A DNA stretch of 64,000 bases, taken from NCBI GenBank assembly GCA_021014945.1, contig MU266367.1, forward strand, positions 93,772-157,771, read 5' to 3'. Position 1 is the first letter of the stretch, and each line of letters opens with the position of its first letter. The position numbers and the translations under genes were made by a program. This DNA comes from Leucogyrophana mollusca (lineage: Eukaryota; Basidiomycota; Agaricomycetes; Boletales). Positions 12,110-35,540 of the stretch are shown piece after piece. The notes below the pieces were generated by a model. That model ran no database searches and was not told the origin of the DNA. It worked only from the letters and a program-made list of their open reading frames with translations.

Positions 12110-12890
12110 TGGTTCGGAGAGAGATCAGCTCCCTGGAATAATGATCACTTGGTGAAAGTGGTGAAGAATTGTTCCGCTGGTTCCCCCTTTATGAACCCCA
12201 CAGATGAAACGCCAACCCCTGACGTCGAAGCCCCAGTTGCTTAACCTTCGTGGTTAAAACTCGCTCAACCTCCATTTAAGTTGCATCTTGCGCCCCTTTT
12301 GGAGAAGCAGCCAGTCCCTTTTAGCTCACTTCCACAGGTATGCCCATATATCACAGGGTCGCTCCCGAGGGTCGGAGATTGCTCAAGAGTGAGCTGTTGC
12401 TTAGTGAGGGGCGCAGATGCCTATGAAACGGAAATCCTCGAAATCTTGGTCAGACTGGAGCTATGATTCATAAGCATATGCCGGAAAACTGATAAGTATT
12501 GTCAGCCGCTGATCTCATAACTATGTGATTTTGGCAAACACATATTCTCCTGGGTAGATGGCAGACTCGATTGTTTGCTCCCCCTGTTGAGGGAATATTT
12601 CTCAGCAATAGCAGTTCTAGCGGCCCCGATGGGCTTATTTTGATGTTACAGGGAGATTGAAGGTTTATACAGTGGTTAATTTGAATCCGCATATTATGCT
12701 GGCGAGTTGACGCTGTTGCTGGCGGTAACGACGGCGTGAGAAGGAAACACCTAGGTGGCACGTTCGCGCAATCTGAGCCCAGGTGAAGTGCATGTTGCAT
12801 GTTGACTGCTTGACAGGAGCGCCACGACGGCTGGCTGAGAGTAACCAAGTGCGAGGTGAAGATTGGTGTCACAAGGTTCAGAAAGGATGT
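12110..12890. other. Intergenic, left edge of accessory region
   Basis: No gene supported. An open frame on the minus strand (12468-12992) is long only by chance: its N-terminal third is the decayed ARP10 fragment described next, and the rest resembles nothing. Confidence 0.5.
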
Positions 12891-13500
12891 GTGCAGGCGG
12901 ATGATGAACCCGGAGAGCATCAGCGCGCCACCGATGGACGATGCCATAGCCTTTTGAAGATCTACTGGAATCGAGGTGTCGCGAGTCAGCAAGGTCTACG
13001 GAGACATTGAAACGTCGATCAAAGCGAACCTTGAGAAGGGTGTCCAAGATCACCTCGACCATCCGGGGCTTGGGATCTGTTTACAAGGAGCTTGGGCGCG
13101 AAGAGTAAAGTTGCTGTACAGGGCCGTAAATCGAAGAAACGAACTTACTGGTGTAATACAGCATGCACCTCTCTAGATTGGTCTCAAACAGTCTGTCTTG
13201 CTCGACTCTTTCTGTTGACTCCGTAGCGCGACTGAAACTCAATAAAGACTGAACGTTGTGTGGCTCAGCGTAGAACACATCTCTTGCTTTACCTTCTCCA
13301 CTGAACCCGACTTTCCATATCAGCGATCCAGGGCCTATGACGACGCGATCTTTAGTCCAATATAACGAATGCCTGCGAGCGGTTGTGTAATGGGGCGAAG
13401 CCTAGAGGATACGGGAGCCTGCCACTCGGGTGGTTGATGGTGTTGCTGCTGGTGTCACCGGGCCGGTTTTCGCGCGAGGAGTACCAGGAACTGCAGATAT
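12891..13500 (-). pseudogene. Broken ARP10 (dynactin actin-related protein) fragment
   Basis: This is a shortened copy of the intact gene at 29932-32015. The exon 1 part (about 13170-13500) still encodes WKVGFSGEGKARDVFYAEP, but the initiator ATG is ATA (13498-13500 on the plus strand reads TAT) and a TAG interrupts the N-terminal region where the intact copy has CAA. A second piece (about 12891-13060) corresponds to the exon beginning PVDLRKTMASS. The two pieces are joined by an internal deletion of about 0.9 kb relative to the intact copy. It cannot make an actin-fold protein. It shows that copy A was derived from an ARP10-containing block. Confidence 0.85.
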
Positions 13501-13989
13501 CTCCGAGTTATCGATAACAAACGCCTGATTCCAAGAACCAATATCGAGTCAGCATCAACATCATGTTGATCATGCGAGTCGCGACTGAGCTGTTGCCTTC
13601 ATGTATTTTTTGAAGCACGTGACAGCAGGTGACACCCTCCAGACTGAGACGCGATTTCGCCTATTACTTAGTGTAGCTGGTCCGCATACGGAATCTGAAG
13701 TAGCGTGATATAATGAATGGCTGGTGGGACTTCCATACAGTTTAGTGGCCCGAGTTCACATCCACCACCGGTGTTGCGAGGATTTGCATTTAAATACAAC
13801 AAATACTCAAGAGCTTGTGCTGAGTCATCGCGCCCCCCTAGAATTACTTCTCCGACTCATGACAGAGGCGGTTCGCCATCACCACCCTCATCACAAACAT
13901 GCGCCGACATGAAGTCTAGGGCCTTTTTAGGCGGGTCCACCCAAAATACCTGCGAGTACTCGCTATATGCTGTCCAGATGTGATTTAAG

Positions 13990-14346
13990 TCACACCAACG
14001 GCCGAACCAGAGGCAAACACGCACCAATTTCTCTCCCATGACAGTGGGCATGCTCTCGGAGAGAAATCGTGAACGGGGAGGTCAAGTCACCGTTAGTGAA
14101 CACCGCGCTTTTGGTTTTCCCGCTGAACTCCGCAGGGAGGTTGATGCATCTGCACCGGGTAAATTCGAAAGTCCAGAGTTCGCCGCTGTACGTTTTGTAG
14201 TGGCCAGTGCAGTTGTAGCCGTCGTGGACAGTGAATTTATAGCCAAGGTGGTTGTTGGCGGCTATGCAATTCTTCGGAGTGTGCTCGGCGACTACTGCGG
14301 CAGCCAATGCAAGGGGTGTCAGAGTGAAGTACTTGAGGGCAACCAT
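13990..14346 (-). CDS. Small secreted Cys-rich protein, possibly crystallin-like
   Basis: A 118-residue open frame with a signal peptide of about 20 residues (MVALKYFTLTPLALAAAVVA). The mature part has at least six Cys and the stretch KFTVHDGYNCTGHYKTYSG, followed by RCRCINLPAEFSGKTKSAVF. The aromatic/Gly pattern and the terminal KSA-hydrophobic motif recall small secreted beta/gamma-crystallin-like proteins of basidiomycetes, but this is only a resemblance. A spliced alternative is possible: a GTGCGT donor near 14018 and a TCGCAG acceptor near 13943 would replace the C-terminal tail with a short ILGGPA-type end. The copy in block B is 5'-truncated, so this is the only intact copy in the window. 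Confidence 0.6.
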   Translation of the reverse strand: MVALKYFTLTPLALAAAVVAEHTPKNCIAANNHLGYKFTVHDGYNCTGHYKTYSGELWTFEFTRCRCINLPAEFSGKTKSAVFTNGDLTSPFTISLREHAHCHGREIGACLPLVRPLV

Positions 14347-16081
14347 TGCTGGCAACTGAAACAAAGGGACATTAGCAGGGTCCAGAGCAAGGGACGGTTA
14401 TACGAGGCTGTACGAAGGACCAAGACTTACCGGCGAGGAACGGAGAATATGATGGCCGATGAGGAGTGACCTCAAGACGCATTTCCTTTAAATATGCATG
14501 CATGGGGGATCCACAGGAGTTCCCCGATGCCCGAGAGCCATTGTAGCCAACCCACTTCAGATCCGGCCTCGTTCGACCAAGGATCAAGTCTCTACCCATG
14601 CAGAAAATACTTATCGACTGTCATTGTGAGGTCGGCTACTGGAGACGACGTCCTTCTGGACATGGGTACTCGACGACTTGCGGCCTAAAAAAGGCGAAGG
14701 CGCATGGACGCAATGGGTGCAGGTCAGAACGTCAAGGCGCGGAGCTCAAGCTCAAGCAACTTCGCAGGCGTCGAAGCAGCGTCTGTGGATGCTCCTTGGG
14801 GTCAGGGTCGCATGAAAAAAGAATACATATATATTGTCGCGTCCTCGCGTCGATGTAGCCAGCCATAACGGACCCCGCCCTGACATGTCGACATGTCGTT
14901 TAAAACAGACCTGGCCCCAATGGTCGACGGGAGGGTACGGTAATGTCGGGTGCAATACCCGCCAGGGGCCGGGAGACCCGGCTACCCGGTCAAGGCGGTG
15001 AGGGCAATTGCCGTATTGTCCAATTCCTGGACATTCCCCGAGTCCCGAGTCTCGACCCCCAGCGACCGTCCACGTCGTACGTCGTACGCCGTCGCCACTC
15101 ACGACTCCTCGAAAACATTGCGCTACCCGCGCAAACCCCATCTCGTCTCAGCCCATACTCAAATTCAAATCTTTACCCAGAGTCCTCTCAGTACCGGTTC
15201 ACTGTGGCCCTCAACCCGAAATCATAATCATAACCGGAATTCGATTCGAATGACATGAGGTATTCACCACCGCATCTAAGGTACTGCCTAAACGAAAAAC
15301 GAAAAAGTTAAAAAGGGAGCCAATTTCAATATTACCTCTGCATGCATGTGTGTGTGTGTCTATATGTCACAGCGCCTCCCGTCCCCGATTCCCTAGACAG
15401 TCTTCCCGCCGAGAGCATACCCACAAAACCGACCCCGCCACCGCCACCCCCTGTAACCTCTCACCGCCCACAACCACCGACGCCCCGACGTCCCCCATCC
15501 CTTGCATCCCCGCCCTGCCCCTACGCGGCGTCTCCACACCGCCCGCGGCGCGCGGACAAGCCGTTTTGGGGGACGGGGTTGAGCTGGTGAGTCATGGTTA
15601 TTTGGTTTGGTCTTTTTGGTATTGGTTTTTTCGTTTGGGGTTTTGGGTACAGTCGGCACGGTGTGAGGTGTGTCGGTATTCTGGGTTTGGGTTTCGATTT
15701 GAGTTTGGGAGGTCTGATTGTCCTTTCGAATTCGCGCCTGCTTACTCATATCGTTGGCTGACGCGGGCGTGGTATTTGCGACGAATATCGTGTTACTGCG
15801 CACCGATGCGACTTGGTCGCGGTTTATCGTTGTGATACACAGCGGGCTGTTATGACGGTCGCGGAACGACGTATCATGGACCGGAGAAGCTAACGATTAC
15901 AATTATTCTACCCGTTTTTTATGTTCAGCGTCTGATGCATGAGGCCGAAAAGCTCATCCAAATTCCAGTCGGAAACCGCCTCTTCTCATCCTGATGTTGG
16001 TCGGAGTCGAACTTTTTGATGGCGATATCGGCAAACGTCGACGTACCGCCCAGCTCGATGCAGCCGAAGTTAACTTTCCAT
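14347..16081. other. Gene-poor stretch with copy-A-specific insertion
   Basis: Positions about 14347-14760 match block B. From about 14760 to 15960 there is extra sequence that B does not have. It contains a Pro/Thr-coding, CCACCGCC-rich segment (15360-15590) ending at a plausible GTGAGT donor (15588), followed by T/G-rich sequence. This looks like a displaced exon plus flank of some other gene, but I do not recognise the protein. No transposon ends or target-site duplication were identified by eye. Confidence 0.4.
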
Positions 16082-16800
16082 CTAGACATGTCCTTGGCTG
16101 CTGTTCCACACACTACTCAGATGATTCGCCCTCACAAAATCATACACCTTCTCCCAATCCCTGCACACGTGTGTGACCCCAATTCCATCCGTCCCTATCA
16201 GTTTCCCGTCGTCGTCGACGTTCAGAGGGTCCAGAGTTGTATCGCTTGCGCAAAGAACAGCCTGGCGTATGAGGTTGAGACAGTGATGAGTGTGGACGTC
16301 CGCGCTATTCGGCTCAATGACGGCCTTGCGAATCATTTGTAGACAGTGCATCTGGTGAAACATGCTGACTCCGAAAGCACGCCCTGCAACAATAGTTGAA
16401 CAAATTGAAGGACACGGGGTATGTGTCATACTTGCCTTGTTCTCCCAACCTGACGAACCCGTTCCCTCGCGGGAAGAGGTCTGTGTTACGCCACTCGGGC
16501 CAAGCTTCTGGGTTGGATACACCATACCGCTGGGTGTCTTCAATCTCGAGGGCCACATATGGCAGATTTATTGGAAGGCGAGTCGGGTGGTCATCTCCAA
16601 CGTAGCCTGAGCGGTTTGATGTCAGGTGGGCTGCGGGTCACGTCAATCGAAAGCAGCTGACTGTAATGGCTATCATCGACCAGCGCATGGGGCTCAGCGG
16701 TCGCTCGTTCGGCGCGTAGACGATATATGGTCCAGGCATTTAGACCGAGACTAAATGCCAACGTCGATAGAGCAATAAACAACGGCGTCACTCGTAACAT
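16082..16800 (-). CDS. UstYa-family (DUF3328) peptide oxidase
   Basis: UstYa proteins are membrane-anchored oxidases that cyclise or otherwise modify core peptides in fungal dikaritin RiPP pathways (ustiloxin, phomopsin, asperipin). Three exons: 16662-16800, 16436-16606 and 16082-16383, closing to 204 codons (203 residues). A single membrane anchor (about residues 4-24) precedes YVGDDHP (48-54) and LEIEDTQRYG. Both diagnostic motifs are intact: HQMHC (113-117) and HTHHC (134-138). The second intron (16384-16435) has a GC donor, GCAAGT, the strong consensus for GC-AG introns, and is needed to keep frame. Start chosen at 16800 because it places the anchor at the N-terminus. The gene is divergent from the peptide precursor at 17858, about 1.06 kb apart. 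Substrate pairing is inference. Confidence 0.85.
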
Positions 16801-17788
16801 TTTGGAATGTAGCCTGCTGTGGAGTCCCTGCACTGTGACTTACGGGGCGCGAGGGACTCGGCGTCTATTGTACAAATGCTGCAGTTGGCTTTCCCGATGT
16901 CGGATCAGATCGCAGGTGCGTGGTGGAAGGCACATACACTGCTCTCTGATGGGGAACCTGAACCATAACATTCTAAATGTATCCTTAGCCGAGACTTAGC
17001 CTAGCTCAAATGATAGGCAGCCGTGATGACACTTCCAATTGTCATTCTCAACTGATAAAGATTATCCTGACTGCCAAAGTATAGCTGTTGCATGTATACC
17101 ATCTTCAGGGCTTCCAGATCGCTCTGGAGCTGAATCAGAGTCGAGGATCAAAAGGTGTCCATCAAACACAGTATCTCCCTGCTTTGATCGTGGAGGGACC
17201 CGAGTATCGACCTCCACGCCTGGCGCCAATCTGTCTGCATCCAAGGTGCCTATCACCGCCCCGCACCATTGTTGCACAGTTCTCAAACCCGTTTATGGAA
17301 ACTGGCATTCCCGTAAAACTGAGGATAGGGTATCACGACCCCGGGGGCCGGAAACACTCGGGGCATTCTTTCAATATCGTTTTATCGGTGCGTGACGTCG
17401 TGAATTCACTCATAGCTAACTGATCTGATTGACAGGGCAACGAGACTGCCGCCGTGCTCCGATGCGACACGGTGCTTTGGCACACAACTTGTTACGACGT
17501 TGCTCATTCAATGTCACAACAGGTCTCGAGGATGGCAACTTTCGCTCCCACCCCGGTAGAGCCACACAAACGATGGTGCAACATGTTGCAATAGTCATAT
17601 GTAGTATCGTCGAAGCCCGCGGAACAGCGTGTACTCGATCTAAAGGACCGCAAGAACAAGGGACGTGATGAGAATCCAGCCCTAGCACGCGCCATGGGCA
17701 CCAGGGCGCGCGGGCCTCGTAGGTATATTCCTGGAACGAACATCACAGTTGTCCAGAAAATCGGCGACACAGATTACCAGTGTGCTCG
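16801..17788. other. Divergent intergenic region, UstYa to peptide gene
   Basis: About 1 kb separating the divergent oxidase and peptide genes. No protein gene supported. Most of it also exists in block B (33965-34555), but a segment of about 400 bp (roughly 17345-17760) is present only here. It may hold a shared control region for the two genes. Confidence 0.45.
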
Positions 17789-17795
17789 TATAAAG
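17789..17795 (+). promoter_or_regulatory. TATA box of peptide gene 1
   Basis: TATAAAG, 69 bp upstream of the ATG at 17858. The same word lies at the same distance upstream of the copy-B peptide gene (34556), and TATAAAA lies 72 bp upstream of the third peptide gene. Such conserved spacing supports real core promoters. Confidence 0.65.
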
Positions 17796-17857
17796 GGAGC
17801 CGGGACAGGTAGCTCGACCCTCAACTCGCTCACATCCCAATCAATTCCATTACCATC

Positions 17858-18185
17858 ATGCAGCTCTCCCCCGCCATCATCGCGCTCTTCGCCACCTTGA
17901 TTACAGGGGTCTGTGCGCTCCCCTCTCCGGACGAGCGTAAGCAGGGTTGACATGCTCTTTGGTTGACTCTAACACTGGCGGCGCTCAGGTAATTTTGCGG
18001 CTGACGTGGCCAAGCGTGAGTTCAGTGACCCTCTCGATCCGTACTCGTGCTAACGAGTATGATCCCAGGCGAACCTGAGGAGATCTCCCACGTCAGTGCC
18101 GAGTGCTTTTTTTTGCAATTGACCAAGAACTCATACGAACTTATTCTAGCCTGAGGGTTACTACTATCTGATCAAAGCTGAATGA
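17858..18185 (+). CDS. Secreted mini-exon peptide precursor 1 (RiPP-like)
   Basis: Four exons: 17858-17936, 17989-18015, 18069-18091, 18150-18185, closing to 55 codons (54 residues). A signal peptide ends GVCALPS. Two dibasic or acidic-Arg sites follow (DER at the exon 1/2 border, AKR at the exon 2/3 border). In both, the intron falls after the first base of the Arg codon. The last part is EPEEISH then PEGYYYLIKAE, where the His-Pro junction is itself an exon border. The candidate core is the Tyr-rich tail; YLI fits the Y-x-I pattern of ustiloxin/phomopsin cores. It is divergent from the UstYa gene and duplicated at 34625. Fossil exons lie downstream. Being a RiPP precursor is inference from architecture and neighbour. 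Confidence 0.7.
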
Positions 18186-18480
18186 GAAGCGTGAGTTCTA
18201 TCACGATGGTCTTGTTCGTCTTGACGTTATGAATGTGGATGTTCCTCAGGTGATGCATGATGCTGTAGTCTAGAAGGTGAGTTCATTGTTGCTGATTCCA
18301 GAGGGCGCTGCTAATATCAATGGTCCCAGTGATTCAGCGAACCATGTCAGTCTTTCGGCGATGAACATCGTTGGACACTGTGCTCAACATATACTGATTC
18401 GTCCTGTAGTAGGATGTGCATGACTGTGGACCTGAAGTCGGACAGGAACTGGGTTTGCCAAGAGGCTGAAATCACCGCGT
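18186..18480 (+). pseudogene. Fossil exons downstream of peptide gene 1
   Basis: After the stop at 18183-18185 the sequence still shows the donor and acceptor pattern of the family: GTGAGT at 18191, TCAG before 18250, another GTGAGT near 18276, CCCAG near 18329 and GTCAGT near 18346. The short blocks between them resemble the repeat exons of the gene at 23155 (the TGATTCAGCG block is like its second exon), but contain stops and frame breaks. The ancestral precursor therefore probably had further units that have been lost. Confidence 0.5.
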
Positions 18481-18767
18481 TTTTCTCAAATTTATGCTCT
18501 CGTTCACTTCATTCCGAGATTCGTATGAACATCCAATGTACTTTGTGTATCTTCGTCCACCTATCGTGATCGACCATTAACGGACTCCACTTCGAGCTTT
18601 CTGAAACGAGCCGAATGCCACTCCGGGAAATGCCGATCGGCGAATCCCCCAGGACAGCTTCAGTTAACTGCCCAATAGTATCCGCTCGCCAATAACTTCT
18701 GCTGCTCCCTACACCTTGACATCAGTTTCCTCTCATCGTCTACTTTTGGAACGTTAACATTCGCCCC

Positions 18768-21557
18768 GCTCTTGTGAATGATGGGGTGGTCTGGCGTAGG
18801 TGTGGGCAGCAATATGTTTGCGTCCGTTGCGCTCTGAGTCTGTTCAAATCCACACCGAAGCCCTCAACCCGACGATGCTACTCCTGCGAGATCTAAGCTT
18901 ATGCTATGCTATTCAAGATAACGCTCTCTCTGCTGGATTTTTAATACATGGCATCTACCGGAAGACAAGTCAAACGCTTGTTTGCAGCGTAGTCTCGGTT
19001 GGGTCAACTTCAGGTGGGCTCTCTGTTGTCCTTCGAATCTTTGAAACGACTGAGCGTAGGCCCGGGAGCGACTCGCTATCAACGAAAACACCGGATTCTG
19101 TGTTTTCCCTCTCGTAAATTTGGTGACATACACGTAGCTGGAGGTTTAGCGAGACCAATGCGATGCCATCACTCTCGATGTGACCTATCATGAAGTGCCT
19201 GCATCCAGGGAGCGGGGCAATTGTCGATGAGCACTGCAGCAGGCGACTAACGCGGCTATACTACTCCTGCGCTGGGTCATATCAAAGGTGTGTGATAGCG
19301 ATAGATTGGTCTAGGCAGAACTCTGACCTGTATAATTATCTGAGCGTCAGTCTCTCTCTGGAGTCCCACATGCCAGTGTACAGGTAGGCAGCGTGACAAT
19401 ACTTCCATTTGGCGCCGTCGACACTTCGCAGGTTTCCACTTCTTGCCAGAAGTAATGGCTATGTATATTCCGGGTCCGGGTCTGGATATTGTTTACAGTT
19501 GGCGAAACCCGCTCCACCATGCGGCTATCCTACACAGCGAGCCTCGCGGTCGCCAGGTCTCAAGGTATTGGCATGTTTTCAATTCACCTAACGTCAATGT
19601 TATACACGGGTATTTCGCACTGTCCAGACCTATTGATCGTAATTCAAGGTTACGTCGCCGACCATATCTATGTTTTTGGTCAAAGGCATTGGGGCTCTCA
19701 TGCCGTCGTTGGTATGTGATGATCTGCCGGCACTTGACTTTGAAGTCGCTCACCGATTTGACCAACGGCTTGAAGACAATCCCGACAAAAATGCCCGACT
19801 CATCAGTGGCGCATCTGACATGTCTCTGCTGCAGGGTAGCGAGTAGAGTCGAATAAGTTCACCGACTTTCTGGGTATCTCTGCATGGCCATGCGAACACG
19901 ATCAAGAATGCTGCACCCCACTGGCGGCGACCACGATCGCTTGAGCGCCTCTTAACATCACATCCTTTTGTTGATGTGGACTTGGCAAAGCACAGTGAAA
20001 GCAGGGGGAAATGGCCACGAACGGAGACGAAGAGTCAGCTCCTCCCAAAAGAGCCCTGAGGTTCCTATGTAGAACAATGAGCCGCTCAGCCTCCTTTGCT
20101 TGTCAGCTGTTCTCGAGATCCTTTACGGAAGCTCGATGAAGCTCGAGATAACCGGCCTTTCACGGACGAGCTCATTCAAGAATATGTTTCTATGCGGAAG
20201 GTATGTACTTCTCGAGACCTTCCCGAATGCTGGTTCTACTTGCATACCTTTCTACACTTTTGCCAGTCGCCCATGTCGGTTTTGCAGAACTGAATCTATG
20301 GAGTCAAACTCGCACTCAGCGCGGGGCGATGCACTTTTCTCAACAGATCAAGGGTCACTGGCGTCTCTTTCTGGGCGGTTGAACGGGGGATCTAAAAACT
20401 CAAATCTGAACATCTGAACTGACGGAAATCTCCATGATCGGCAGCGTAAGTTTACACAAGGAGCACGACTGGATACGCTGGTAATTTCAGATTTCATGTT
20501 TCTTTTTCTCCCACTTAAATCTTGCTCGGCCCGAAGGACGATTCCAGCTGCTGAAAATCCAGTAACCAAGTAACTAAGCTCTTAAGTTAGGTGGGTTTTG
20601 CGCAAACCAATGTGAAGTATCGTTGATCCGAGAAGCATCCTGAGCTGTCTGACATGTTCAACCAGTTGTGCCTGACCCAAACGACTTTCTTCCAGAAGCG
20701 AAGGGCTGGATAATTCATATCGATAATCACGGATGTTTGGCTTTCTTCTACAATGAGTGAGGTACCTACCTGCCCCTAATTTCTACGAAGGCTGTCGGTA
20801 TCAACAGTGAGCCGCTGCCTTGCGCGAAAGTTCTCGGGCTGCTCAAGTCGAAGCTTCGACATCAATGCGGGTGAGGTAGTCCCTCATGTGGTGGAACCTC
20901 AAGCTTGAATCATCCATGGTGAGTGCATCAGATCTGACTTGTTCAAGTTGTTGTCCCTGCTCGGTTATGTGAATAGGGTTGACGAGCGCCGGCTGACCTG
21001 TAAACGCCCTGCGAAGCTCCGAATGGATATTTTCTCATGTACTTTTGGAACGCCCATGATCTCCCCGCGATCGTCCATTGCCGGGATGTCTTTAGTCTTC
21101 CCACTATGACATACCGCAAAAGGAAGTCAGTCACTCCTAATTCTTCAGTCCACTTCGTGTCTGCAGTTCTGATCCCCTTGGCTTATCAGATAATCTACCT
21201 GCATTACAGCTGTCAATGATATGTAATTGTTATGTTGAGAACGCCGTGCACTGATGAGGGTGTGCATAGTACGCAGGTAGGAGCAACTGCGGCATTAGCC
21301 ACACTCGTCTGGCGATTACTGCGACCTCGTGCAACGTGTTTGGTTCACAGGATGGGTCTACTCAGGGCATTCCGTGTCATTGTCACGTACATATGATCAC
21401 CAGGCCTGTTGAAGCGGAAGGGTCCACGTCAGAAGAAATGTTGCGACCGTGTTTGGATCGCATTAGCGCTCACTGCAAGGTATAAGTTGGGCAAGGATAT
21501 GAAGCCCAAGCCCACCATCGAAACTTACTGTACACCTCAGGGGAACACCGCCAAATC
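18768..21557. other. Gene-poor relic region
   Basis: No complete gene recognised. Many short frames on both strands lack family resemblance. A piece at about 20666-20758 encodes a WW-like stretch with GWIIHIDNHGCLAFFYNE, which resembles the WW-type motif of some uncharacterised agaricomycete proteins; it ends in a stop and I find no convincing continuation, so it is probably a relic. Nothing points to an intact mobile element. Confidence 0.4.
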
Positions 21558-22783
21558 ATGTCACTCCCGCCTCACTCGAAGATCGCTTTGCTGATCTGCG
21601 ACCCGACCAAAGAAGAGTTCATTGATTCCTATGGAAACATTACCAGCCTCTTTACCAACCTGTACACGAAGCTTCTGATTCAAATGACGAATCCCTCTTT
21701 TACGCGGTCATTCCTGCCCGCCCTGCCCGAAGTCATGAAGTCATTCCGTATCAGCGCGTTCAATGTAATCGAGGGACAACTCCCTACCAATGTCGACGAA
21801 TATGACTCGGTCATGGTTTCAGGTTCAGGTACGCTGGTCGTAGAGCTATCAAAGGTAGATACCTGACGTCGCAATATACACTAGCGCACAGCGTTAATGA
21901 TAGTGATGAGTGGATCAAGACACTCGGAAAGTTCTTGAATGAGACTGCGACGAAACACCCAAAGGTCAAGCTTATCGGTAAGTGCCGACATCTCTGACAG
22001 TACGCCACACAATTTTCGGCTTTCTGAGACACATCGTAACAGGGGTCTGCTTTGGCCACCAAATCATTACTCATGCTGTCTTCGGGAACCCGGTTGGAGC
22101 GAACCCCAAAGGATGGGAGATAGGACCATACGAAGTCACACTGACTGACGCCGGGAAACAAATATTCAGAGGTGCGAAAAGTTTGGTAAGTGCATTGATC
22201 ATGATGAGATTTCCCCGATGTCATACTGAGTAATGGAAACCGGTAGAATGTCGAGATGTTCCACCATGATGCTGTGTTCACTAGTGGTCAGCGTGCGTAC
22301 TTCAGGCAGCTATGCGCAGCGATGCCTTACGAGAAGAGCGTACCTGAAAACACCTTTCATATATGGGGGCACAGCGAGAAGACGGAGAATCAAGGCATTG
22401 TCGCATTGAAGAAGGAGGCGGAGGAGAAAGGCAACCTCAATGTGGACGACATCCAGATCTTCACTTCACAAGGCCATCCCGAGCTCACGCAAGGAATGAC
22501 GTCGTACTTGCTTGACCTGTTTGAGGATGAGATAGACGCAGACTCCGTTGCCGAGGCGCGTTCACGCATCGCGGATTTCGACGGGATCCTTGATTGGTTC
22601 CGGCTGACGATGTTCATGTGGGCATTATCGACTAGGCACTCGCTTGTTCTCTCCAGGCTACCGGTCCAGGTCACTCCCCCTCACGGTGTCAAGAACCCGT
22701 TCAAGGAAGCCAAGTTGACAGATGACAGGTTAAGGGTGAAGGCGAATGACCCGGATGAGAGTGTATTTGTGCTTGTCGTATGA
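21558..22783 (+). CDS. Class I glutamine amidotransferase-like protein
   Basis: Exons 21558-21828, 21885-21977, 22043-22185 and 22247-22783, in frame to 347 residues. The nucleophile elbow GVCFGHQI places Cys124, and the His-x-Glu pair is in QGHPE (His246, Glu248), so the Cys-His-Glu triad of GATase class I domains is complete. There is no synthetase domain, so it is a stand-alone fungal member. The family is often annotated as GMP synthase-like; some members act as gamma-glutamyl peptidases on glutathione conjugates. The last about 55 residues after DGILDW extend beyond the usual domain end and might instead reflect an unrecognised intron. It lies 371 bp upstream of the peptide gene at 23155 on the same strand; a role with it is possible but unproven. 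Confidence 0.8.
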
Positions 22784-23154: not shown

Positions 23155-23732
23155 ATGCAACTCTCTCTCACCTTCGTCACGCTCCTTGCCGCTTTGACCG
23201 CAGGGGTATGCGCTCTTCCTTCCCAGCAAAAACGTAGGTCAAGCTGACGCTATAAGCGGCACCGCACTAACATTCACGGCGTTCAGGTGATTCTGCAGCG
23301 GGCCATGTCAGCAGCACACTCTCCCACCTTTGAGCTGGACTTACAATCGATCATAACAGAGCACAGGGTCCGTCGAGTATGACATCGCCGAGCGTGAGTT
23401 CAATCATTGTCGAAGGTAGGTGTTGTGCTGACCACCACATGAACCCCAGGCAACCCGCAAGCCCATGTCAGTACTGTTGATTATCGTCTTAGTCACGGGA
23501 CTCACATTGACTCATACCAATAGCCCCTTGCCGACTATATCGAAGCTGCGGATTTCGTGGATGAGAAGCGTAAGTGCAATGATTGTATCCTTTGACACTG
23601 TGCTGACAGCTGTGGACTTGCAGGCGATACAACGGAACATGTTAGTCGTCCTGGGGTAGTCTCTGTTTGACGTTGAGCTTACACTTTACCGATTAGCCTG
23701 TAGCAGCCTATGGATTGGGTGTCGAGAAGTAA
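23155..23732 (+). CDS. Multi-core secreted mini-exon peptide precursor (RiPP-like)
   Basis: Seven exons: 23155-23233, 23287-23306, 23360-23393, 23450-23466, 23524-23569, 23624-23640, 23697-23732. They close to 83 codons (82 residues). The signal peptide ends GVCALPS, then QQKR. Three units follow, each from a tiny exon ending in His (DSAAGH, NPQAH, DTTEH) plus a longer Tyr-bearing exon (with EYDIAER, DYIEAADF, AAYGLGVEK). Intron phases alternate strictly 1,0,1,0,1,0. Every phase-1 intron splits the Arg codon of a KR or ER site, and every phase-0 intron follows the His codon. This is the architecture of a Kex2-processed repeat precursor, with one unit per exon pair. It sits between the amidotransferase-like gene and the Myb/zinc-finger gene, all on the plus strand. 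Function inferred. Confidence 0.75.
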
Positions 23733-28100: not shown

Positions 28101-29126
28101 TCACTGGTGGCGCAGGTCGAAGCTCTCGAGATCGAGGTTCACTGCAGGACCCAAACATCAAATGCTACAGTGACAGCACCCGTGAGTCGTGATATCTCAT
28201 GAACCGAAGTATCGAAAAGTGCAACGTACCCATCGGAGGGCTCGAGAACACCTGTTCAAAGTTCAGTCTGCAGTCATTGCAAGCCACTTCGATAGCTATC
28301 CGACTGTCTCCTCCGCAGTCGAATAACGGCGTTGGTGGCCTGAGTTCTATGCCCGCACGCTCTGGGTCGTAACCCTGTGGGACAGGGGAGAAATTGACTG
28401 TGCCCAAGAGTGACTGACGCGGTGGTCGTGTGTTCCAGCTCATTGCAGCGGAGATGGCCGAGTATGAAACATTCCAAATTTCAATGGCACTGACGTCTCC
28501 CTCAGCCACGTAGCTCTTGTTTCCTTGCAAAGCTTCGGTGGCGTTGGGAACCACCGCGGTGACGTAGCACCTACTGTTATTGGCGTTCTCCATACGCCAG
28601 CGGAAGAACATAGAATCCTAGGTGACAAGATCCAGTCAGGACAATATACAACGGGCCCACTTAATCACTGACTGTAGGACTAAGTGTCACGGAACTCGAT
28701 GTCGAGTACAGCTGATCTGGCTCCGCTGAGTTGGCACGCGCGATATAGCCAGGGAACCAAATCTTGGGCACTATTCAAGTCATGAATCGATCCAGCAGAC
28801 ACTGCAGGGAAGCGTCACGTCTACTCACCGGATTTAAGCTTAGTGACCTCATTTAGGTGCTCCAAGTTCGGGTACGGTGTTACTTTTCGCAAAGACGCGA
28901 GGAATCGAGGGTCAGAAATGTCCACGACAGTCCTTGGAGAAGTGGCAGTGTGCAGGAATATGGCAGACAGTATGGAAACAAAGGACACCGCGAGCGTTAC
29001 ATAGAGCGCTGTGGAGGACGTTGGCCCTTGTGCATTGGTTTTGTAAGGAACGATTTCAGGGCTTACATCTCCATCTTCTCCAGACCTGGAAAGAAGAGGG
29101 AGGTAGTGTTCGTGATTCCTTTCCAT
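28101..29126 (-). CDS. Uncharacterised single-pass membrane protein (type II)
   Basis: The first exon (29126 down to about 28828) encodes a polar N-terminus, then one membrane segment (about residues 40-60, ALYVTLAVSFVSILSAIF), then DPRFLASLRKVTPYPNLEHL. Splicing joins KLKSG to VPKIWFPGYIARANSAEPD and then to DSMFFRWRMENANNSRCYV. Several N-glycosylation sequons (NNS, NAT, NKS, NVS) suggest a lumenal or extracellular C-terminal domain. A perfect GTACGT donor at about 28232 and a CTGCAG acceptor at about 28140 probably add a short last exon ending DLRHQ at 28101. Agaricomycete genomes carry many such short anchored proteins of unknown role. It shares only the anchor-plus-ectodomain layout with UstYa; it has no HxxHC motif. 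Confidence 0.6.
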
Positions 29127-29931
29127 GGAGTTTGCAACAGAGCTTTTTGGAACCTCGGTGAAAGACGCGGGGAAGGGGAGCTGTCGATTTTAAGGGTTCC
29201 GGCCTCACGATCGAGCACAGCTATCAGGTCGCGTCTTAATAAAAACACCGTGTTGGCAGGACCGAATCTATGATGGCCGGGAAAGGAGCCATGGCGGGCG
29301 GCTGGATGGGAATGATGGGGAGGTGAGGCACTTCCCCTCCGCATCAAGCACCAAGTACCATGCACACGAGGCGCACAATCTGCCTCTGCCGCCGATAAAA
29401 ATAGCAAGGATGGTCCGAATTCGTCACAACCTCTGAGTTATGCAGGGCGCAAGGCGTTAGCTTTGGCAAAGATAGCTGAAATCGGCGCTTGCGAGTATGA
29501 GTATACGCTCTGCGAACAGGCGATAAAGTGATGAGATACCATCCGGTGGAAGATAGTACACCGGAAACTTGATCCTACCCTACGGCACAATAGTAGACTG
29601 GCCGCCCGGGGACCTGTTTGAAAGCGAGAGGCTCAGCCGAAAGAAGAAATCTTTACTTGTCACCCCTCTTCCACCATGGAAGAATAATCTGACTTCAATG
29701 TTGAAAGATACAGCTCATTGGGAAGAATCTTGGCGTGTTTGGACTAACCCCGGAGGCGAAGGCATGATCAGCGCATAGGCCTCTTTGCTGATAAATCACA
29801 CCACGTGACGCTTCCATATCACACCTAGCTACGTGGTGCACAGTGCAGCGTCTCTCATTCGCGTTAAGTGATATTATACGGAATCCAACAGACAGGTGAA
29901 AAGCGGCACGGACCAAAATCCCTGAAACAAG
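29127..29931. other. Intergenic with one CACGTG element
   Basis: No gene supported. A CACGTG palindrome is at 29802-29807. The stretch separates the membrane protein (start at 29126) from the 3' end of ARP10. Confidence 0.45.
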
Positions 29932-32015
29932 CTACGCACCCACCGTCGCCCGGGGTGAAGGAGCTGGCGTAAGACCTTTCGGAAGCACTGCAGGAGGTGC
30001 CCCAGCTGAGATAGGCACGCGGGTCCAATCCGGTATGATGCTCCTCGGGGCATGCTCAGAATTAGGAACGGACATCACCATGTCGTCATCGTCATCGTTC
30101 TGTGTGAGGTCTGCCTCGTCCCATTTCTCCCTCGCGACTTCTACTCCTCCCGTTTTCAGAGACCTGTGCAATGAAAAATAGGTTGGATGTTGTTACGGGC
30201 GACTTCAATGCACTACATACCCGGCTAGTGATCCTCCAACCCACGCCATGGTGGCAGGAGAGAAGGCAGGAGCCTTCCCTGCGTTGCCTGCCGCTCGAGC
30301 AGACGCTGGTGGTTGGGGTGCAGGGTTGTTGAGGATGGCAAAATAAGAGAGTAATGGACGGAGAGGAGCATAGCGGTCGTACTGGGGGGGAGCTGGTCTA
30401 CCTGGACGAGGAGGCTGTCTAGATGAGGCGGGCGGCTCGATGGCACGTATCAGTTCCCTGTGCAGACGTGGGATGAACCCAGGGAGCATCGGCGTGCCAC
30501 CGACAACTAGTATGGATGATGCCATAGTCTTTCGAAGATCTACCGGGACCTAGATAGCGCAAGTCAGCAAGGTCCCGCTGAGGTATTGATGCATTGATCA
30601 AAACGAACCTTGAGAAGGGTATCCAAGATCACCTCAGCCACGCTGCTTTCGTCTACATCACCACCTTCGAAGAGTACCTCTGCGGCACGTTCACGGATCC
30701 ATCCAGGGATAATCAATGTGCCGCGCCCGGTACCTGTTTGCTGAGACGCGGGAGGTACGACGCGTATTTGGAGGTCTGTGGCAGTGGAATGTCTCATATA
30801 CATATTCGCAAGAACTTGTAGATGACTCTGGCCTCGGCTGGACTCTGAGACTCCAATGGGCTGGGGATGGGAGATTATCGAATAATCAGAGGAAGCTATA
30901 TGTGATGAGGCGGTGCTCTCGAGCCCTACTGACTCGCGAGAGAATGATGATTCGGACATGGCTGAGTCGCTAGGGGGCACGTCGAGTTCGACGAGCTCAT
31001 CGCCGGTCTCAGGAGAAGAGACGCGCATGTCGTTTGTCGTTTCGAGTACACCACTGACGAAGCAACAACGCGTTTTTATTTCCTCGACGAGAGCATCTGT
31101 GAGGATCTCCTGAGGAACACGCATGGAGCGATTGGCGGCCGGTACGTTGACTGCGGCACTAAGAGAGGTAGGAGGAGGAAGGTACGTGCCAAAGAGGAGT
31201 AGGAGGGCTCGAAGGTGGGAGGTAAGTCTGGACCCTGCGAGAGGCGTTGTCCTCAGCTGAGGGAAAAGCGGTCTCGCGGCAAATATCTACTGATTGTGAG
31301 AGGGTAAACCTTAGAAGGAAGAGTGCACTGACTGGCAACACTGTTGACTCGAGATGCCCGGAATCAAGGACCAATCCAGTTATTCGGCCAACCGATAAGA
31401 GGGAAAGCAGATGACTTGACGCGAATGATATCGATGGAACCTCCACCATGAAGTCAAACTTCCATTCGGCGACACATGGTACAGCAACGTACTTGAAGGT
31501 TGTTGAACAGAATCCGCGCAATCATGTCCTTGATGTAAATGGGTAGCAGCGGGTGTTCTACCAGGATTACCTTCCGGGACTTGGGATCTGTTAACAAGGA
31601 GCTATGGCGCGAAGGGTAAAGTTGCTGCACAGGACCGTAAATCGAAGAAACGAGCTTACTGGTGAAAAACAGCGCGCATGCACCTCTCTAGATTGATCTC
31701 AAGCAGTCTGTCTTGCTCGGCTCTTTCTGTTGGCTCTGTAGCGCGACTGCAACTCCATAAAGACTGGACATTGTGTGGCTCAGCGTAGAACACATCTCTC
31801 GCTTTACCCTCTCCACTGAACCCGACTTTCCATATCAGCGATCCAGGGTCTATGACGACGCGATCTTCGGTCCCATATAACGAGTGCCTGCGAGTGGTTG
31901 TGTAATGGGGCGATGCTTGGAGGATATGGGAGCCTGCCACTCGAGCGGTTGATGGTGTTGCTGCTGGTGTCACTGAGCCTGTCTTCGCGCGGGGAGTAAC
32001 AGGAACTGCAGACAT
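29932..32015 (-). CDS. ARP10: Actin-related protein 10 (dynactin pointed-end subunit)
   Basis: Divergent actin-fold protein of the dynactin complex, which links dynein to cargo. Exon 1 encodes RVVIDPGSLIWKVGFSGEG, the nucleotide-binding strand of the actin fold. Later exons carry VPSISFASSHLLSLLSVGR with ITGLVLDSGHLESTVLP (phosphate 2-like strand), RSMRVPQEILTDALVEEIK, GTLIIPGWIRERAAEVLFEG, and VPVDLRKTMASSILVVGGTPMLPGF (adenosine motif, VVGGTPMLPGF). A Pro-rich and acidic tail ends at 29932. A Ser-rich insert interrupts the fold around 30700-31000, as often in fungal ARP10. Introns have GT..AG ends but not all borders were fixed. This is the source of the broken copy at 12891-13500. Confidence 0.82.
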
Positions 32016-32370
32016 CTCCGAGTTGTGAATAACAGATGCCTAATTCTAAGGACCAATGATGAGTCGAGTCTAGTAGTATATCACGAGCATGCGACCAAAC
32101 TGTCTTCATTTACTTTTGAAACACGTGACAGCCTCTAGACTGAGATGCGGTTGCGCCTATCACTTACTTAGTGTATCTACTTAGTGTATCCTGGTCCACG
32201 TACGGATTCTGACGTAGCGTGATATAACGAATAGCTGGTGGGACCTCCATACAGTTTAGTGGCCCGAGTTCACATTCACCACCGGTGTTGAGAGGATTTG
32301 CATTCAAATATAATAAATACTCAAGAGCTTATCCTCAGTCATCACGCCCCGTCAAAATCACCTCTCCGGC
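32016..32370. other. ARP10 promoter region
   Basis: Contains CACGTG at 32122-32127, also present at the equivalent place in copy A (13616-13621), and a short tandem repeat of a CTTAGTGTATC word (about 32166-32191) that occurs once in copy A. Confidence 0.5.
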
Positions 32371-32776
32371 TCATAGGGGCGGTTTACCGCCACCACCCTG
32401 ATCACAAACATGCGCCGACTTGAAATCTAGGGCCTCTTTAGGCGGGCCCACCCAAAATACCTGCGAGTACTCGCTACATGCTGTCCGGATGGAATTTAAG
32501 TCACGCCAACGGCCTAACCAAAGGTAAACACGCACCAAGTTCTTCCCCATGGTAGTGGGCATGCTCTCGGAGAGAAACCGTGAACGGGGGGGTCAAGTCA
32601 CCGTGTTAGTGAACACTGCGCTTTTGGTTTTCCCGCTGAACTCCGCAGGGAGGTTGATGGATCTGCACCGGGCAATCTCGAAAGTCCAGAGATCGCCGCT
32701 GTACGTTTTGAAGTAGCCAGTGCAGTTGTAGCCGTCGTGGACGGTGAATTTATAGCCAAGGTGGTTGTTGGCGGAC
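32371..32776 (-). pseudogene. 5'-truncated small secreted protein gene
   Basis: Matches the gene at 13990-14346 closely (KFTVHDGYNCTGYFKTYSG) but the start codon and whole signal peptide are gone: at about 32776 the sequence jumps to what corresponds to position about 14567 of copy A, a deletion of about 300 bp. A two-base difference (extra AC after TTCACTA) also changes the frame near the end of the Cys-rich domain. It is unlikely to yield a secreted product. Confidence 0.75.
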
Positions 32777-33275
32777 CAGGGACCAAGTCTTTACTCATAC
32801 AGAGAATACTTATCGATTGTGATAAGCTGTCATTGTGAGGTCGGCTCCTGGAGACTACGTAGGACTACGTCCTTTCTGGACCTGGTAAGCGACGAAATGC
32901 GGCCAAAAAAAAGGCGAAGGCGCATGGGCGCACGTCTGAACGTTGAGGCGCGGAGCTCAAGCCCAAGATAAGATGCGTCTGGAGACATTTTTTTTTACTG
33001 AGAAAACCTCTAGATTTCAGGCCAACAACGCATCCTCAAATCTCGATTCCAGACGTGTGTGGCGCGGAGTTCGAAAAAAGTGCAAAGAACCTGCATTTTT
33101 CTTGAAACTCCGCGCTGCAGTCACCTGGAACCGAGATCAAACCTGATCAAACCGAGATTACCGAAAACGCTTCTTCTCATGCTTCGGTCGAAGTCGAACT
33201 TGACGCACAACATCGGCAAATGCTCAGCTCTGCTCAGCTTGATGTATTAGCATCTAGGCATATCCAGGCATATCC
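32777..33275. other. Intergenic, copy B
   Basis: Partly matches copy A 14570-14760; the 1.2 kb insertion seen in A is absent and is replaced by about 200 bp of unrelated sequence (32970-33170). No gene supported. Confidence 0.45.
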
Positions 33276-33964
33276 TCAGATGCTGCTATTCCACACACTG
33301 CTCAGATGATTCGCCCTCACAAACACCTTCCAATCCCTGCGCACTTGTGCGACCCCAATTCCATCCGTCCCTATTAATTTGCCATCGTTGTTGACGTGCA
33401 GAGGGTTCGGAGTTGTATCTCTTGCACAAAGAACAGCCTGGCATGCGAGGCTAAGACAGTGATAAGTGTGGCCGTCCGCACTATCCTGCTCAATGACGAT
33501 CTTGCGAATCATTTGTATATAGTGCATCTGGTGAAACATGCTGACTCCGAAAGCACGCCTTGCAACAATAGTCGGACAAATTGAAGTACACGGCGTGCCT
33601 GTCAAACCTGCCTTGTTTTCCCAACCTGACCGTTACCTCGCCGGAAAAGGTCTGTGTTAAGCCACTCGGATCAAGCTTCCGCGTTGGATATGCCATACCG
33701 CTGAGTGTCTTCGATCTCGAGGGCCACATATGGCAGATCTACTGGAAGGCGAGTCGGGCGGTCGTCTCCAACGTAGCCTGATCGGTCGGATGTTAGGTGG
33801 GCTGCAGGTCACGTCAATCAAAAGCAGCTGACTGTAATGGCTATCATCGACAATCGCATGAGGCCCAGCGGTTGCTTGTTCGGTGCGTAGACAATATATG
33901 GTCCACGCGTTTAGACTGATATCAACGTCGATAGAGCGATAAATAGCGGCGTCTCTCGCAACAT
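33276..33964 (-). pseudogene. Broken UstYa-family gene
   Basis: Copy-B partner of the intact gene at 16082-16800. A deletion of about seven bases in the membrane-anchor codons (near 33920) brings a stop about 18 codons after the ATG. The last acceptor, TTGCAG in copy A, reads TTGCAAG here, shifting the splice point by one base. The first metal-type motif has lost its Cys (HQMHY instead of HQMHC), while the second still fits HxxHC (HTYHC). The GC donor of the second intron is conserved as GCAGGT. These independent lesions indicate a pseudogene. Confidence 0.85.
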
Positions 33965-34555
33965 TATGGAATGTAACCAGCTGTGGAGTTATGGAGCGCG
34001 AGGGACTCGGCGTCTATTGTACAAATGCTGCAGCTGGCTATATCCCAGCCTGGGTCACATCGACAATGAGCTGGCTTTCCCGATGTCGGATCAGATCACA
34101 GGTGCGTGGTGGAAGGCACATACACTGCTCTCTGATGGGGAACTTGAACTATAACATTCTAAATGTATCCCCAGCCGAGACTCAGCGTAGCTCAATCGAT
34201 TGGCAGCGTGATGACGCCCCCATTTATCGTTCTCAACTGATGAAGATTATCCCCACCGCCGAAGTATAGCTGTTGCATGTATACCATCTTCGGGCTTCCA
34301 GGTCGGTTTGGAACTGGATCAGAGTCGAGGATCAAAAGGTGTCCATCAATAGCATCTCCCTACTTTAATCGAGAGGGGACCCGAGTATCGACCTCCGCGC
34401 CTGGCGCCAATCTGTCTGCATCCAATGTGCCTATCGCCGCCCCGCATCAGTGTTGCGCAGTTCTCAAACCCGTCGATGGAAACTCACCTTCACGTAAGAC
34501 TGAAGATAAGGTATCTCGACCCCAAGGTCGGCGGCACAGATCACTAGTGTACTCG

Positions 34556-34562
34556 TATAAAG
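34556..34562 (+). promoter_or_regulatory. TATA box of peptide gene 2
   Basis: TATAAAG 69 bp upstream of the ATG at 34625, same word and spacing as for peptide gene 1. Confidence 0.65.
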
Positions 34563-34624
34563 GGAGCTAGGTCATGTAGCTTAACCTTCACCTCACTCGC
34601 ATTCCAAATAATTCCATTACTACC

Positions 34625-34952
34625 ATGCAGCTCTCTCTCGCCTCCATCGCACTCTTCGCTACCTTGATTGTAGGGGTCTGTGCCCTTCCTTCTCCGGACA
34701 AGCGTAAGCAGGGTTTACACGGTCTTTGGTTGCCTCTAACGCTGGCGGCGCTCAGGTGGTCATGCAGCTGACATGGCCAAGCGTGAGTTTGGTTATGCTC
34801 TTGATCCGTACCCGTGCTAACGAGCACGATCCCAGGCGAAGCTGAGGAGATCGTCCACGTCAGTTCCGACTGCTTTTTTTTGACATCGACCAAGAACTGA
34901 TACAAACTCATTCTAGCCCGCGGGCACCTACTATGTGATCAAAGCTGATTAA
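34625..34952 (+). CDS. Secreted mini-exon peptide precursor 2 (RiPP-like)
   Basis: Exons 34625-34703, 34756-34782, 34836-34858, 34917-34952, closing to 55 codons. Exon lengths and intron phases are identical to peptide gene 1. The signal peptide ends GVCALPS; sites DKR and AKR have the Arg codon split by introns; the C-terminal part is EAEEIVH then PAGTYYVIKAD. The core tail differs from copy A (TYYVIK against YYYLIK) while the leader is nearly the same, and the replaced residues are conservative. The YVI triplet is the same as in the ustiloxin/phomopsin core family. The oxidase of this block is broken, so if processed, this peptide would depend on the intact oxidase at 16082 or one elsewhere. 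Role inferred. Confidence 0.7.
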
Positions 34953-35226
34953 GAAGCGTGAGTTCCATCATGATGTTCTTCTCTGCCTTGACGTCATGAA
35001 TGCGGATGGTCCTCAGGTGATGCATGATGCTTGGTGGAGAAGTGTGAGTTCATTGTTACCGGTGTCGGGGGGCGCTGCTAATATTAATGGTCCCAGTGAT
35101 TCAGCGAACCCTGTCAGTCTTTCGGCGATGAACCTCGTTGGACACTGCTCAGCATATACTGAATTGTCCTGTAGTAGGATGTGCATGACTGTAGACCTGA
35201 AGTCGGACAGGAACTGGGTTTGCTAA
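34953..35226 (+). pseudogene. Fossil exons downstream of peptide gene 2
   Basis: As in copy A, splice-like signals continue past the stop (GTGAGT at 34958, CTCAG before 35017, CCCAG before 35097, GTCAGT at 35113) around short blocks resembling family exons but interrupted by stops. The base that separates the core exon from the expected GAGAAGC end is an extra base shared by both copies, so the truncation predates the duplication. Confidence 0.5.
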
Positions 35227-35540
35227 GAGGCTGAAGTCACCGCGTTTTCTTCAATCTATGTTTTCGTTTGCCTTATTCTGGTATTCGTATGAACATCCAA
35301 TCTACTTTGTGTATTTTCGCCCGCCCATCGTGATCAACCTGTAAATAACAGACTCCAAGTTCACTTGAGGCCCCCTAAACGGGTTATCATTCCGGGAAAG
35401 GCCGCTCGGTGGATCTCCCAGAGTCCCAGAACACCTTCAGCTAGCTGCGATACTAACTTGGCGATAACTTGTGCTGTTCCCTATACCTCGACATCAATTT
35501 CCTCTCATCGTCTACCTTTGTAACGTTCACATATAACCCC

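Follow-up and report, generated by a model that had tools for sequence, protein, structure and literature searches.

Focal oxidase and precursor genes

The window analyzed here, a stretch of 64,000 nucleotides from the basidiomycete Leucogyrophana mollusca (contig MU266367.1, hereafter C41; positions 93772-157771 of its 157771 bases, in a genome of 32.3 Mb), carries a gene encoding an oxidase of the UstYa (DUF3328) family and, divergently oriented, a small gene (P1) encoding a putative secreted precursor peptide. Their starts are separated by 1058 bp, in agreement with the divergent arrangement about 1 kb apart described in a first-pass annotation of this sequence. The same annotation had proposed a candidate ribosomally synthesized and post-translationally modified peptide (RiPP) system, and this proposal is supported: the pairing recurs in the case of 10 of the 16 related precursor genes present in the genome and follows one close group of UstYa genes (12 of 15 members, as against 0 of 16 others). 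The locus probably belongs to a basidiomycete RiPP system resembling the dikaritins, with proteolytic processing and cross-linking steps that can be proposed by analogy. The actual unit is not the single pair first noticed but a whole gene family carrying microexon arrays.

The oxidase gene (Table 1) has a GC donor at its second intron, and its product of 203 aa is identical over all its residues to the deposited protein P0003 (BV22DRAFT_285265, Leucogyrophana mollusca). A profile search, which had been recommended as a check, matched the Pfam UstYa family (PF11807) with 72.4 bits, the cut-off being 25. The HQMHC and HTHHC motifs and the N-terminal anchor previously reported were all recovered: both HxxHC motifs are read in the sequence and a helix at residues 6-34 is predicted in the AlphaFold2 model. 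In an alignment with 78 of 91 relatives, residues H113, H116, C117, H134, H137, and C138 were found to be at least 90% conserved. The predicted local distance difference test (pLDDT) score of the model was 56.6 with 25 of the 91 relatives and 83.9 with 78 of them, after most of the fragments had been dropped; in the latter model the HxxHC residues are located near the starts of two helices (110-126 and 133-148). Since none of the folds in the PDB stood out upon comparison, no conclusion is drawn from the fold other than these two motif helices. The reading frame is whole, and the last exon is under constraint, the ratio of nonsynonymous to synonymous divergence (dN/dS) being 0.16 over 97 codons between the P1 partner and its counterpart on contig C86.

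The P1 introns are all of the GT-AG type, and the spliced product, MQLSPAIIALFATLITGVCALPSPDERNFAADVAKREPEEISHPEGYYYLIKAE, has 54 residues and equals the deposited protein P0098 (BV22DRAFT_1127433) of Leucogyrophana mollusca. The four-exon, 54-residue precursor with KR/ER sites and a Tyr-rich tail that had been read from the DNA therefore coincides with a deposited model. It consists of a leader ending in ALPSPDER, the segment NFAADVAKR, and EPEEISH followed by PEGYYYLIKAE, and thus contains one KR site, one ER site, and a single core in the Tyr-rich tail. Judging from its sequence (hydrophobic leader, (K/E)R sites, and proximity to the oxidase gene), P1 fits a secreted Kex2-type precursor belonging to the cluster of the oxidase. 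The exon-like pieces downstream of its stop codon (Table 1) are apparently the decayed remainder of a longer P1 array. Pieces of this kind with splice signals also follow the stop codons of P2 (34953-35260) and P8 (L020 8164-8350); in all three genes they look, by eye, like leftovers of longer arrays which have been shortened.

Positions 12890-18760 and 30459-35532 of the window form a duplicated block with 74-86% DNA identity, which comprises a gene (at about 13.1-14.3 kb), an UstYa gene, and a precursor. The precursor in the second copy, P2, encodes 54 aa with the core PAGTYYVIKAD and was found in a DNA search to be 84% identical to P1 over 461 bases. The UstYa copy beside it is decayed, its last exon showing a dN/dS of 0.68.

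A family of precursors built from microexons

The 16 precursor genes identified in the genome have a common leader. A weak protein-search match (E 0.03) led to the more distant gene P3, and an array scan, in which clustered donors splitting an Arg codon after K or E were sought in the stretches around UstYa matches, yielded further arrays on C41 outside the window and on contigs C270, C391 (two), and C86. Within the 64-kb window, clusters of split-Arg donors occur at P1-P3 only; the motif RARCGTRAG was found 11 times where 3.9 occurrences were expected, and 8 of these 11 are located inside P1-P3 or at their ends. A genome-wide leader pattern gave 21 matches, as compared with 10 for a reversed-pattern control; seven of the 21 were dropped for want of an in-frame ATG and 14 genes were kept. 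The number was brought to 16 by a leader scan near UstYa genes, which left out the C38 fragments and the second match on C101 and added two genes with MKFALTF leaders; none was detected in the UstYa stretches on C8, C19, C101, C139, C140, C343, C364, C417, C499, and C512, where genes with other leaders would be missed. A TATAAA box is present 59-100 nt upstream of the ATG in 15 of the 16 genes, P14 being the exception; in background DNA the box occurs in 39 of 3452 stretches, each 100 nt long.

In P3, a leader ending in ALPSQQKR precedes DSAAGH-STGSVEYDIAER, NPQAH-PLADYIEAADFVDEKR, and DTTEH-PVAAYGLGVEK; the deposited protein P0096 matches this model through NPQAH and diverges thereafter. Beside P3, a gene at 21486-22780 (+) shows a weak, below-cut-off match to glutamine amidotransferases, and a homolog of this gene is present in the P4 stretch (L016 8007-9178). 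P4-P8, P10, and P12 carry several cores each and P1 carries one; P10 (L043 1444-2978, contig C58) has about six near-identical units with a period of about 257 nt. When the criteria used for Kex2-processed repeat proteins (KEPs), namely a signal peptide and repeats between dibasic sites, are applied to the sequences, P4, P5, P7, and P8 fit, whereas P1 has a single core.

Eleven genes were modelled; of the other five, P10 and P12 could be modelled only in part, and for P11, P13, and P14 no full model was convincing. The models of P3, P4, P5, and P16 were curated manually, and deposited models equal those of P1, P2, and P8. Most of the 11 genes are microexon arrays: 22 of the 65 internal exons measure at most 15 nt, the smallest being only 3 nt long. 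The introns (46-91 nt) are all GT-AG and are in phase 0 (39 cases) or phase 1 (37 cases), never in phase 2. In 24 of the 25 KR sites the Arg codon is interrupted by a phase-1 intron, although this count is partly built in for P6-P9 and P15, the models of which were scored with a bonus for split-Arg donors. An intron within the Arg codon of nearly every modelled processing site is an unusual design for a repetitive prohormone-like gene.

The units mostly consist of a spacer exon followed by a Tyr exon, as in EPLVAGTAG-ITLYSADISEESTIEKR (P4) and SLGEG-NVYYMAADVPIVEKR (P7); others read EPIGE-FS-YFLASEEGTAVEKR (P10) and DR-KGYDITGGDIETR (P6). The P6 locus contains 12 KGYDITGG units, and its model keeps two stretches which are probably introns. 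The deposited P5 model contains VFG, while the contiguous sequence GTGTTCGGA is absent from the P5 DNA, which means that a 6-nt exon is needed, and almost certainly a 3-nt one as well. This suggests that the deposited P5 model is backed by transcript evidence.

The family is functional, judging from exon-specific conservation along with the constraint on the oxidase. Between P15 and P16, which adjoin oxidases with intact last exons, mismatches occur at 4 of 162 exon positions and 38 of 247 intron positions (p 9e-6). Between P6 and P12, they occur at 14 of 327 exon positions and 96 of 645 intron positions (p 2e-7; first 12 exons and 11 introns), with a dN of 0, a dS of 0.21 over 109 codons, and no amino-acid change. 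Both pairs are under purifying selection.

Tyr is present in all 19 cores, although Tyr partly defined which exons were counted as cores. The motif Y-x-[ILVM] was found in 15 of these 19 cores (shuffle mean 5.4, with 0 of 20000 shuffles as high) and in 16 of 22 when three close variants, two from P4 and one from P7, were added (mean 6.2, 0 of 20000); as the cores are related, this test overstates their independence and is suggestive only. With one core per gene, the motif occurs in 9 or 7 of 10, depending on the P3 and P8 core chosen. The Tyr-aliphatic spacing is also present in the P1 core.

Association with UstYa and a But2-like partner

The genome contains 31 UstYa matches. The starts of 11 of the 16 precursors lie no more than 5 kb from one of these, and 10 of the 16 have one in divergent orientation at a distance of up to 2.5 kb. 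This association is restricted to one close group: 12 of the 15 UstYa genes with at least 60% identity to P0003 are near a precursor, as against none of the 16 others (Fisher p 3e-6), the group having been set by identity with fragments and decayed copies included. Among the other UstYa genes, a tandem subfamily on C364 and C417 (L009, L010, L012) has the highest Pfam scores, and the two of its pieces that were read in frame have no HxxHC motif, a third piece being out of frame; the C139 UstYa is a relic (HNHRC).

When nine neighborhoods were compared, a third recurring gene was found in six of them. Its product, which we call But2-like, has a short N-terminal tail and one hydrophobic stretch, and all seven copies in the genome lie within 5 kb of an UstYa or precursor gene. 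The Pfam But2 family matched one exon with 24.3 bits (cut-off 24.2) and another copy with 16.6 bits, and none of the window pieces scanned; the match is weak, and But2 is a label for the third partner and not a function. The unit probably includes this partner. The open reading frames (ORFs) common to at least three of the nine loci map to the genes for UstYa, the precursor, or the But2-like protein, or to the stretch that separates UstYa from precursor.

The co-occurrence of the two families, which had been put forward as a check for related genomes, is supported within this genome by the 10 of 16 divergent cases and, indirectly, in two Agaricales. Precursors with KGYDI cores were found in Rhodocollybia butyracea and Mycena polygramma, on contigs equal to the base in size (238310 and 720900 bases) to those carrying UstYa P0047 and P0048. 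Given these equal sizes, the pairing very probably holds in Rhodocollybia and Mycena; precursor and UstYa are probably paired in both.

On this basis, a pathway can be proposed. The precursor would be a secreted pre-pro-peptide, with a signal peptide, a short pro-piece ending in (K/E/A)R, and one or more spacer-core units, each combining a spacer (EPLVAGTAG, SLGEG, EPIGE) with a Tyr core (YDI, YFI, YYM, YFL) and usually an acidic tail plus KR. Proteases of the Kex2/Kex1 type may free the units in the secretory pathway, and the membrane-anchored UstYa encoded head-to-head with the precursor might oxidize Tyr through its two HxxHC motifs, as would be expected from established UstYa chemistry. 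The Tyr side chain would most likely be joined to the aliphatic residue at +2, like Tyr-Ile in ustiloxin and phomopsin, and the But2-like membrane protein may serve as a dedicated helper. As spacer and core lie on separate small exons and the introns fall in the Kex2 Arg codon, each unit amounts to a phase-compatible splice cassette, which could be duplicated or skipped without breaking the frame. It is conceivable, although we would not favor it at present, that these genes define a RiPP class with precursors assembled by splicing, in which cassettes hinged in the Kex2 Arg codon are combined and an UstYa/But2-like pair modifies the cores; the combinatorial shuffling of cores might then occur via gene duplication and perhaps alternative splicing. 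If this is so, cyclized Kex2 peptides would be common in mushrooms, though protein surveys report them as rare.

Several observations weigh against the dikaritin-like interpretation. The nominal binomial p values for the linkage (3e-19 within 5 kb; 5e-26 for divergence within 2.5 kb) are overstated since blocks have been duplicated, and the recurring layout may be partly inherited through block duplication instead of being kept by selection. Of the 10 UstYa genes paired divergently with a precursor, three (next to P2, P5, and P13) are degraded or fragmentary, and five of the 16 precursors (P3, P7, P10, P11, and P14) lack an UstYa match at a distance of 5 kb or less; on the contig of P10, none was found at E 0.001. 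Most of the P6 units end in TR or AR, which are poor Kex2 sites, the deposited P5 model skips the 6-nt exons (PP, VG) placed in the second and third units, and four short exons of our P5 model are missing from it. To the non-independence of the cores can be added the fact that 6 of 22 of them do not show Y-x-[ILVM].

The focal pair itself raises a further difficulty. No conservation of exons over introns was found between P1 and P2 (29 mismatches in 165 exon positions and 22 in 163 intron positions), with a dN of 0.17 and a dS of 0.27; since their exons differ as the introns do and the oxidase of P2 is decayed, P1 appears to have no constraint of its own. Having a single core and a single dibasic site, and showing no such conservation with respect to its closest paralog, P1 is a weak example of the family. 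The family might therefore be real and the focal pair a decaying remnant, in which P1 is truncated, its later exons are dead, and the peptide is no longer made or used. The exon-like pieces persisting 3' of the P1 stop and the pseudogene state of the duplicate oxidase also point in this direction, but the P1 oxidase has a whole reading frame and a constrained last exon in comparison with C86, the leader, TATA box, and all the splice sites of P1 are intact, and the single-core gene P9 adjoins an oxidase whose last exon retains both motifs. This possibility therefore seems unlikely, though it deserves to be kept in mind; the focal pair is a shortened, single-core member of the family which may be evolving loosely.

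The peptides might also be linear, Kex2-cut signalling or defence peptides, like the unmodified KEP peptides of Agaricomycetes, UstYa acting elsewhere. Linear, minimally modified KEP peptides are documented in four Agaricomycetes in the material available from PMC9769878, and the five precursors with no UstYa nearby would fit this picture. It is rather improbable, however, in view of the association with one close UstYa group, the divergent orientation in 10 cases, and the presence of Tyr in every core, although Tyr was a criterion for core exons. UstYa-type proteins also act outside RiPP pathways, as in cyclochlorotine biosynthesis, so that UstYa could tailor a non-ribosomal or other small molecule, with the peptide genes as bystanders. 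There is little to recommend this idea, as no match to non-ribosomal peptide synthetases or polyketide synthases was found in the scanned set of window ORFs (28 of the 119 of at least 110 aa and four shorter ones) and the ORFs shared by at least three of the nine neighborhoods are those of the UstYa, precursor, and But2-like genes or the UstYa-precursor spacer. Lastly, small spliced ORFs are easily found by eye, but a chance ORF beside the oxidase can practically be dismissed given the identical deposited model, the 16 genes with a common leader (15 with a TATA box), and the conservation of exons over introns in two other paralog pairs.

Relation to known systems

The dikaritin-like system favored here resembles the dikaritins (ustiloxin, phomopsin, and asperipin-2a, along with the related victorin and epichloecyclins) in its UstYa/DUF3328 oxidase with two HxxHC motifs and in its secreted precursor with KR-bounded Tyr cores of a Y-x-I-like type, the likeness being one of layout and core motif. 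It differs in its basidiomycete host, in precursors whose coding sequence is divided among microexons with breaks in the Kex2 Arg codon, and in the But2-like partner. No tyrosinase, S41 peptidase, or methyltransferase was found in the scanned window ORFs (28 of the 119 of at least 110 aa and four shorter ones). Such accessory enzymes are not required in dikaritin pathways, to judge by the passages of PMC12048977 in which asperipin-2a is associated with a single ustY gene. In ustiloxins and phomopsins, the side chains of Tyr and Ile are cross-linked by UstYa/UstYb homologs, according to the corresponding passages of PMC9233826.

Genes for Kex2 precursors with a DUF3328 neighbor have been described before, mostly in Ascomycota. 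In the accessible parts of the survey by Umemura 2020 (PMC7329392), 103 of 1680 basidiomycete KEPs have DUF3328 within 15 genes and Tyr is enriched in KEPs with DUF3328 neighbors; its author suggests that in Basidiomycota cyclization may be nearly absent or may involve a different motif. The logic is the same as here, but the repeats in the present family are split over microexons; neither exon nor intron is mentioned in the main text of that paper. No P6-type array of Leucogyrophana mollusca was among the deposited proteins returned (candidates about 75-240 aa). With the repeats spread over microexons and no such array deposited, surveys of predicted proteins can miss these arrays. Cores placed on exons mostly 6-55 nt long, which both gene finders and scans for repeats in predicted proteins handle poorly, provide a concrete reason for the apparent rarity of cyclized Kex2 peptides in Basidiomycota. 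High intron density is likewise named in the passages of PMC9233826 as hampering the finding of toxin clusters in basidiomycetes.

The linear KEPs of Coprinopsis, Lentinula, and Pleurotus (PMC9769878) are similar in that they come from Agaricomycetes and have a signal peptide and Kex2 sites; they differ in that the peptides detected are linear, with no DUF3328 in the main text and no microexon layout in the parts available. As intron-less cDNAs were cloned for five Coprinopsis KEPs, according to the same source, introns in KEP genes are not new as such. UstYa-like genes are abundant in some Agaricomycetes; in the passages of PMC8893723, 16 are reported in Pleurotus as probably involved in dikaritin production, and no substrate is named for Agaricomycete UstYa-like genes. 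The present family supplies candidate UstYa substrates with exact sequences, for example EPLVAGTAGITLYSADISEESTIE, SLGEGNVYYMAADVPIVE, NRKAYDIVWDIIRD, and EPEEISHPEGYYYLIKAE, which make the reaction directly testable. But2 and UstYa are both mentioned in PMC5915685, each a single time.

Microexon genes as a class resemble these precursors in having many small exons, symmetric here as a spacer-plus-core pair, and a short secreted peptide product; the case in Trichoderma differs, involving a single regulatory exon and not a peptide precursor. In a search of open-access papers, no description of microexon Kex2 precursors was found, nor any earlier account of a microexon layout in which introns interrupt the Kex2 Arg codon, of the dedicated group of UstYa genes, or of the But2-like partner. 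These genes probably constitute an overlooked ribosomal-peptide pathway of mushroom-type fungi.

Table 1. Positions in the 64-kb window of the UstYa, precursor, and But2-like genes and of associated elements
Feature	Position	Strand	Remarks
UstYa (DUF3328) oxidase gene	16082..16800	-	identical to deposited BV22DRAFT_285265; Pfam UstYa match
Oxidase exons (3)	16800-16662, 16606-16436, 16383-16082	-	ATG at 16800
TATAAA box of P1	17789..17794	+	69 nt upstream of ATG
Precursor P1, 4 exons	17858-17936, 17989-18015, 18069-18091, 18150-18185	+	identical to deposited BV22DRAFT_1127433
Exon-like pieces 3' of the P1 stop codon	18186..18480	+	read by eye; split-Arg donor motif 18187-18195
Precursor P3, 7 exons	23155..23732	+	curated by hand
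But2-like gene	28228..29171 (pieces 29171-28824, 28768-28667, 28617-28228)	-	one predicted membrane stretch
Second UstYa copy, decayed	33279..33965	-	in-frame stops; first HxxHC motif lost (HQMHY)
Precursor P2, 4 exons	34625-34703, 34756-34782, 34836-34858, 34917-34952	+	identical to deposited BV22DRAFT_1127438

About 4.4 kb past the block containing P2, the window also carries a gene encoding an oligopeptide transporter of the OPT family (39935-42129, minus strand).
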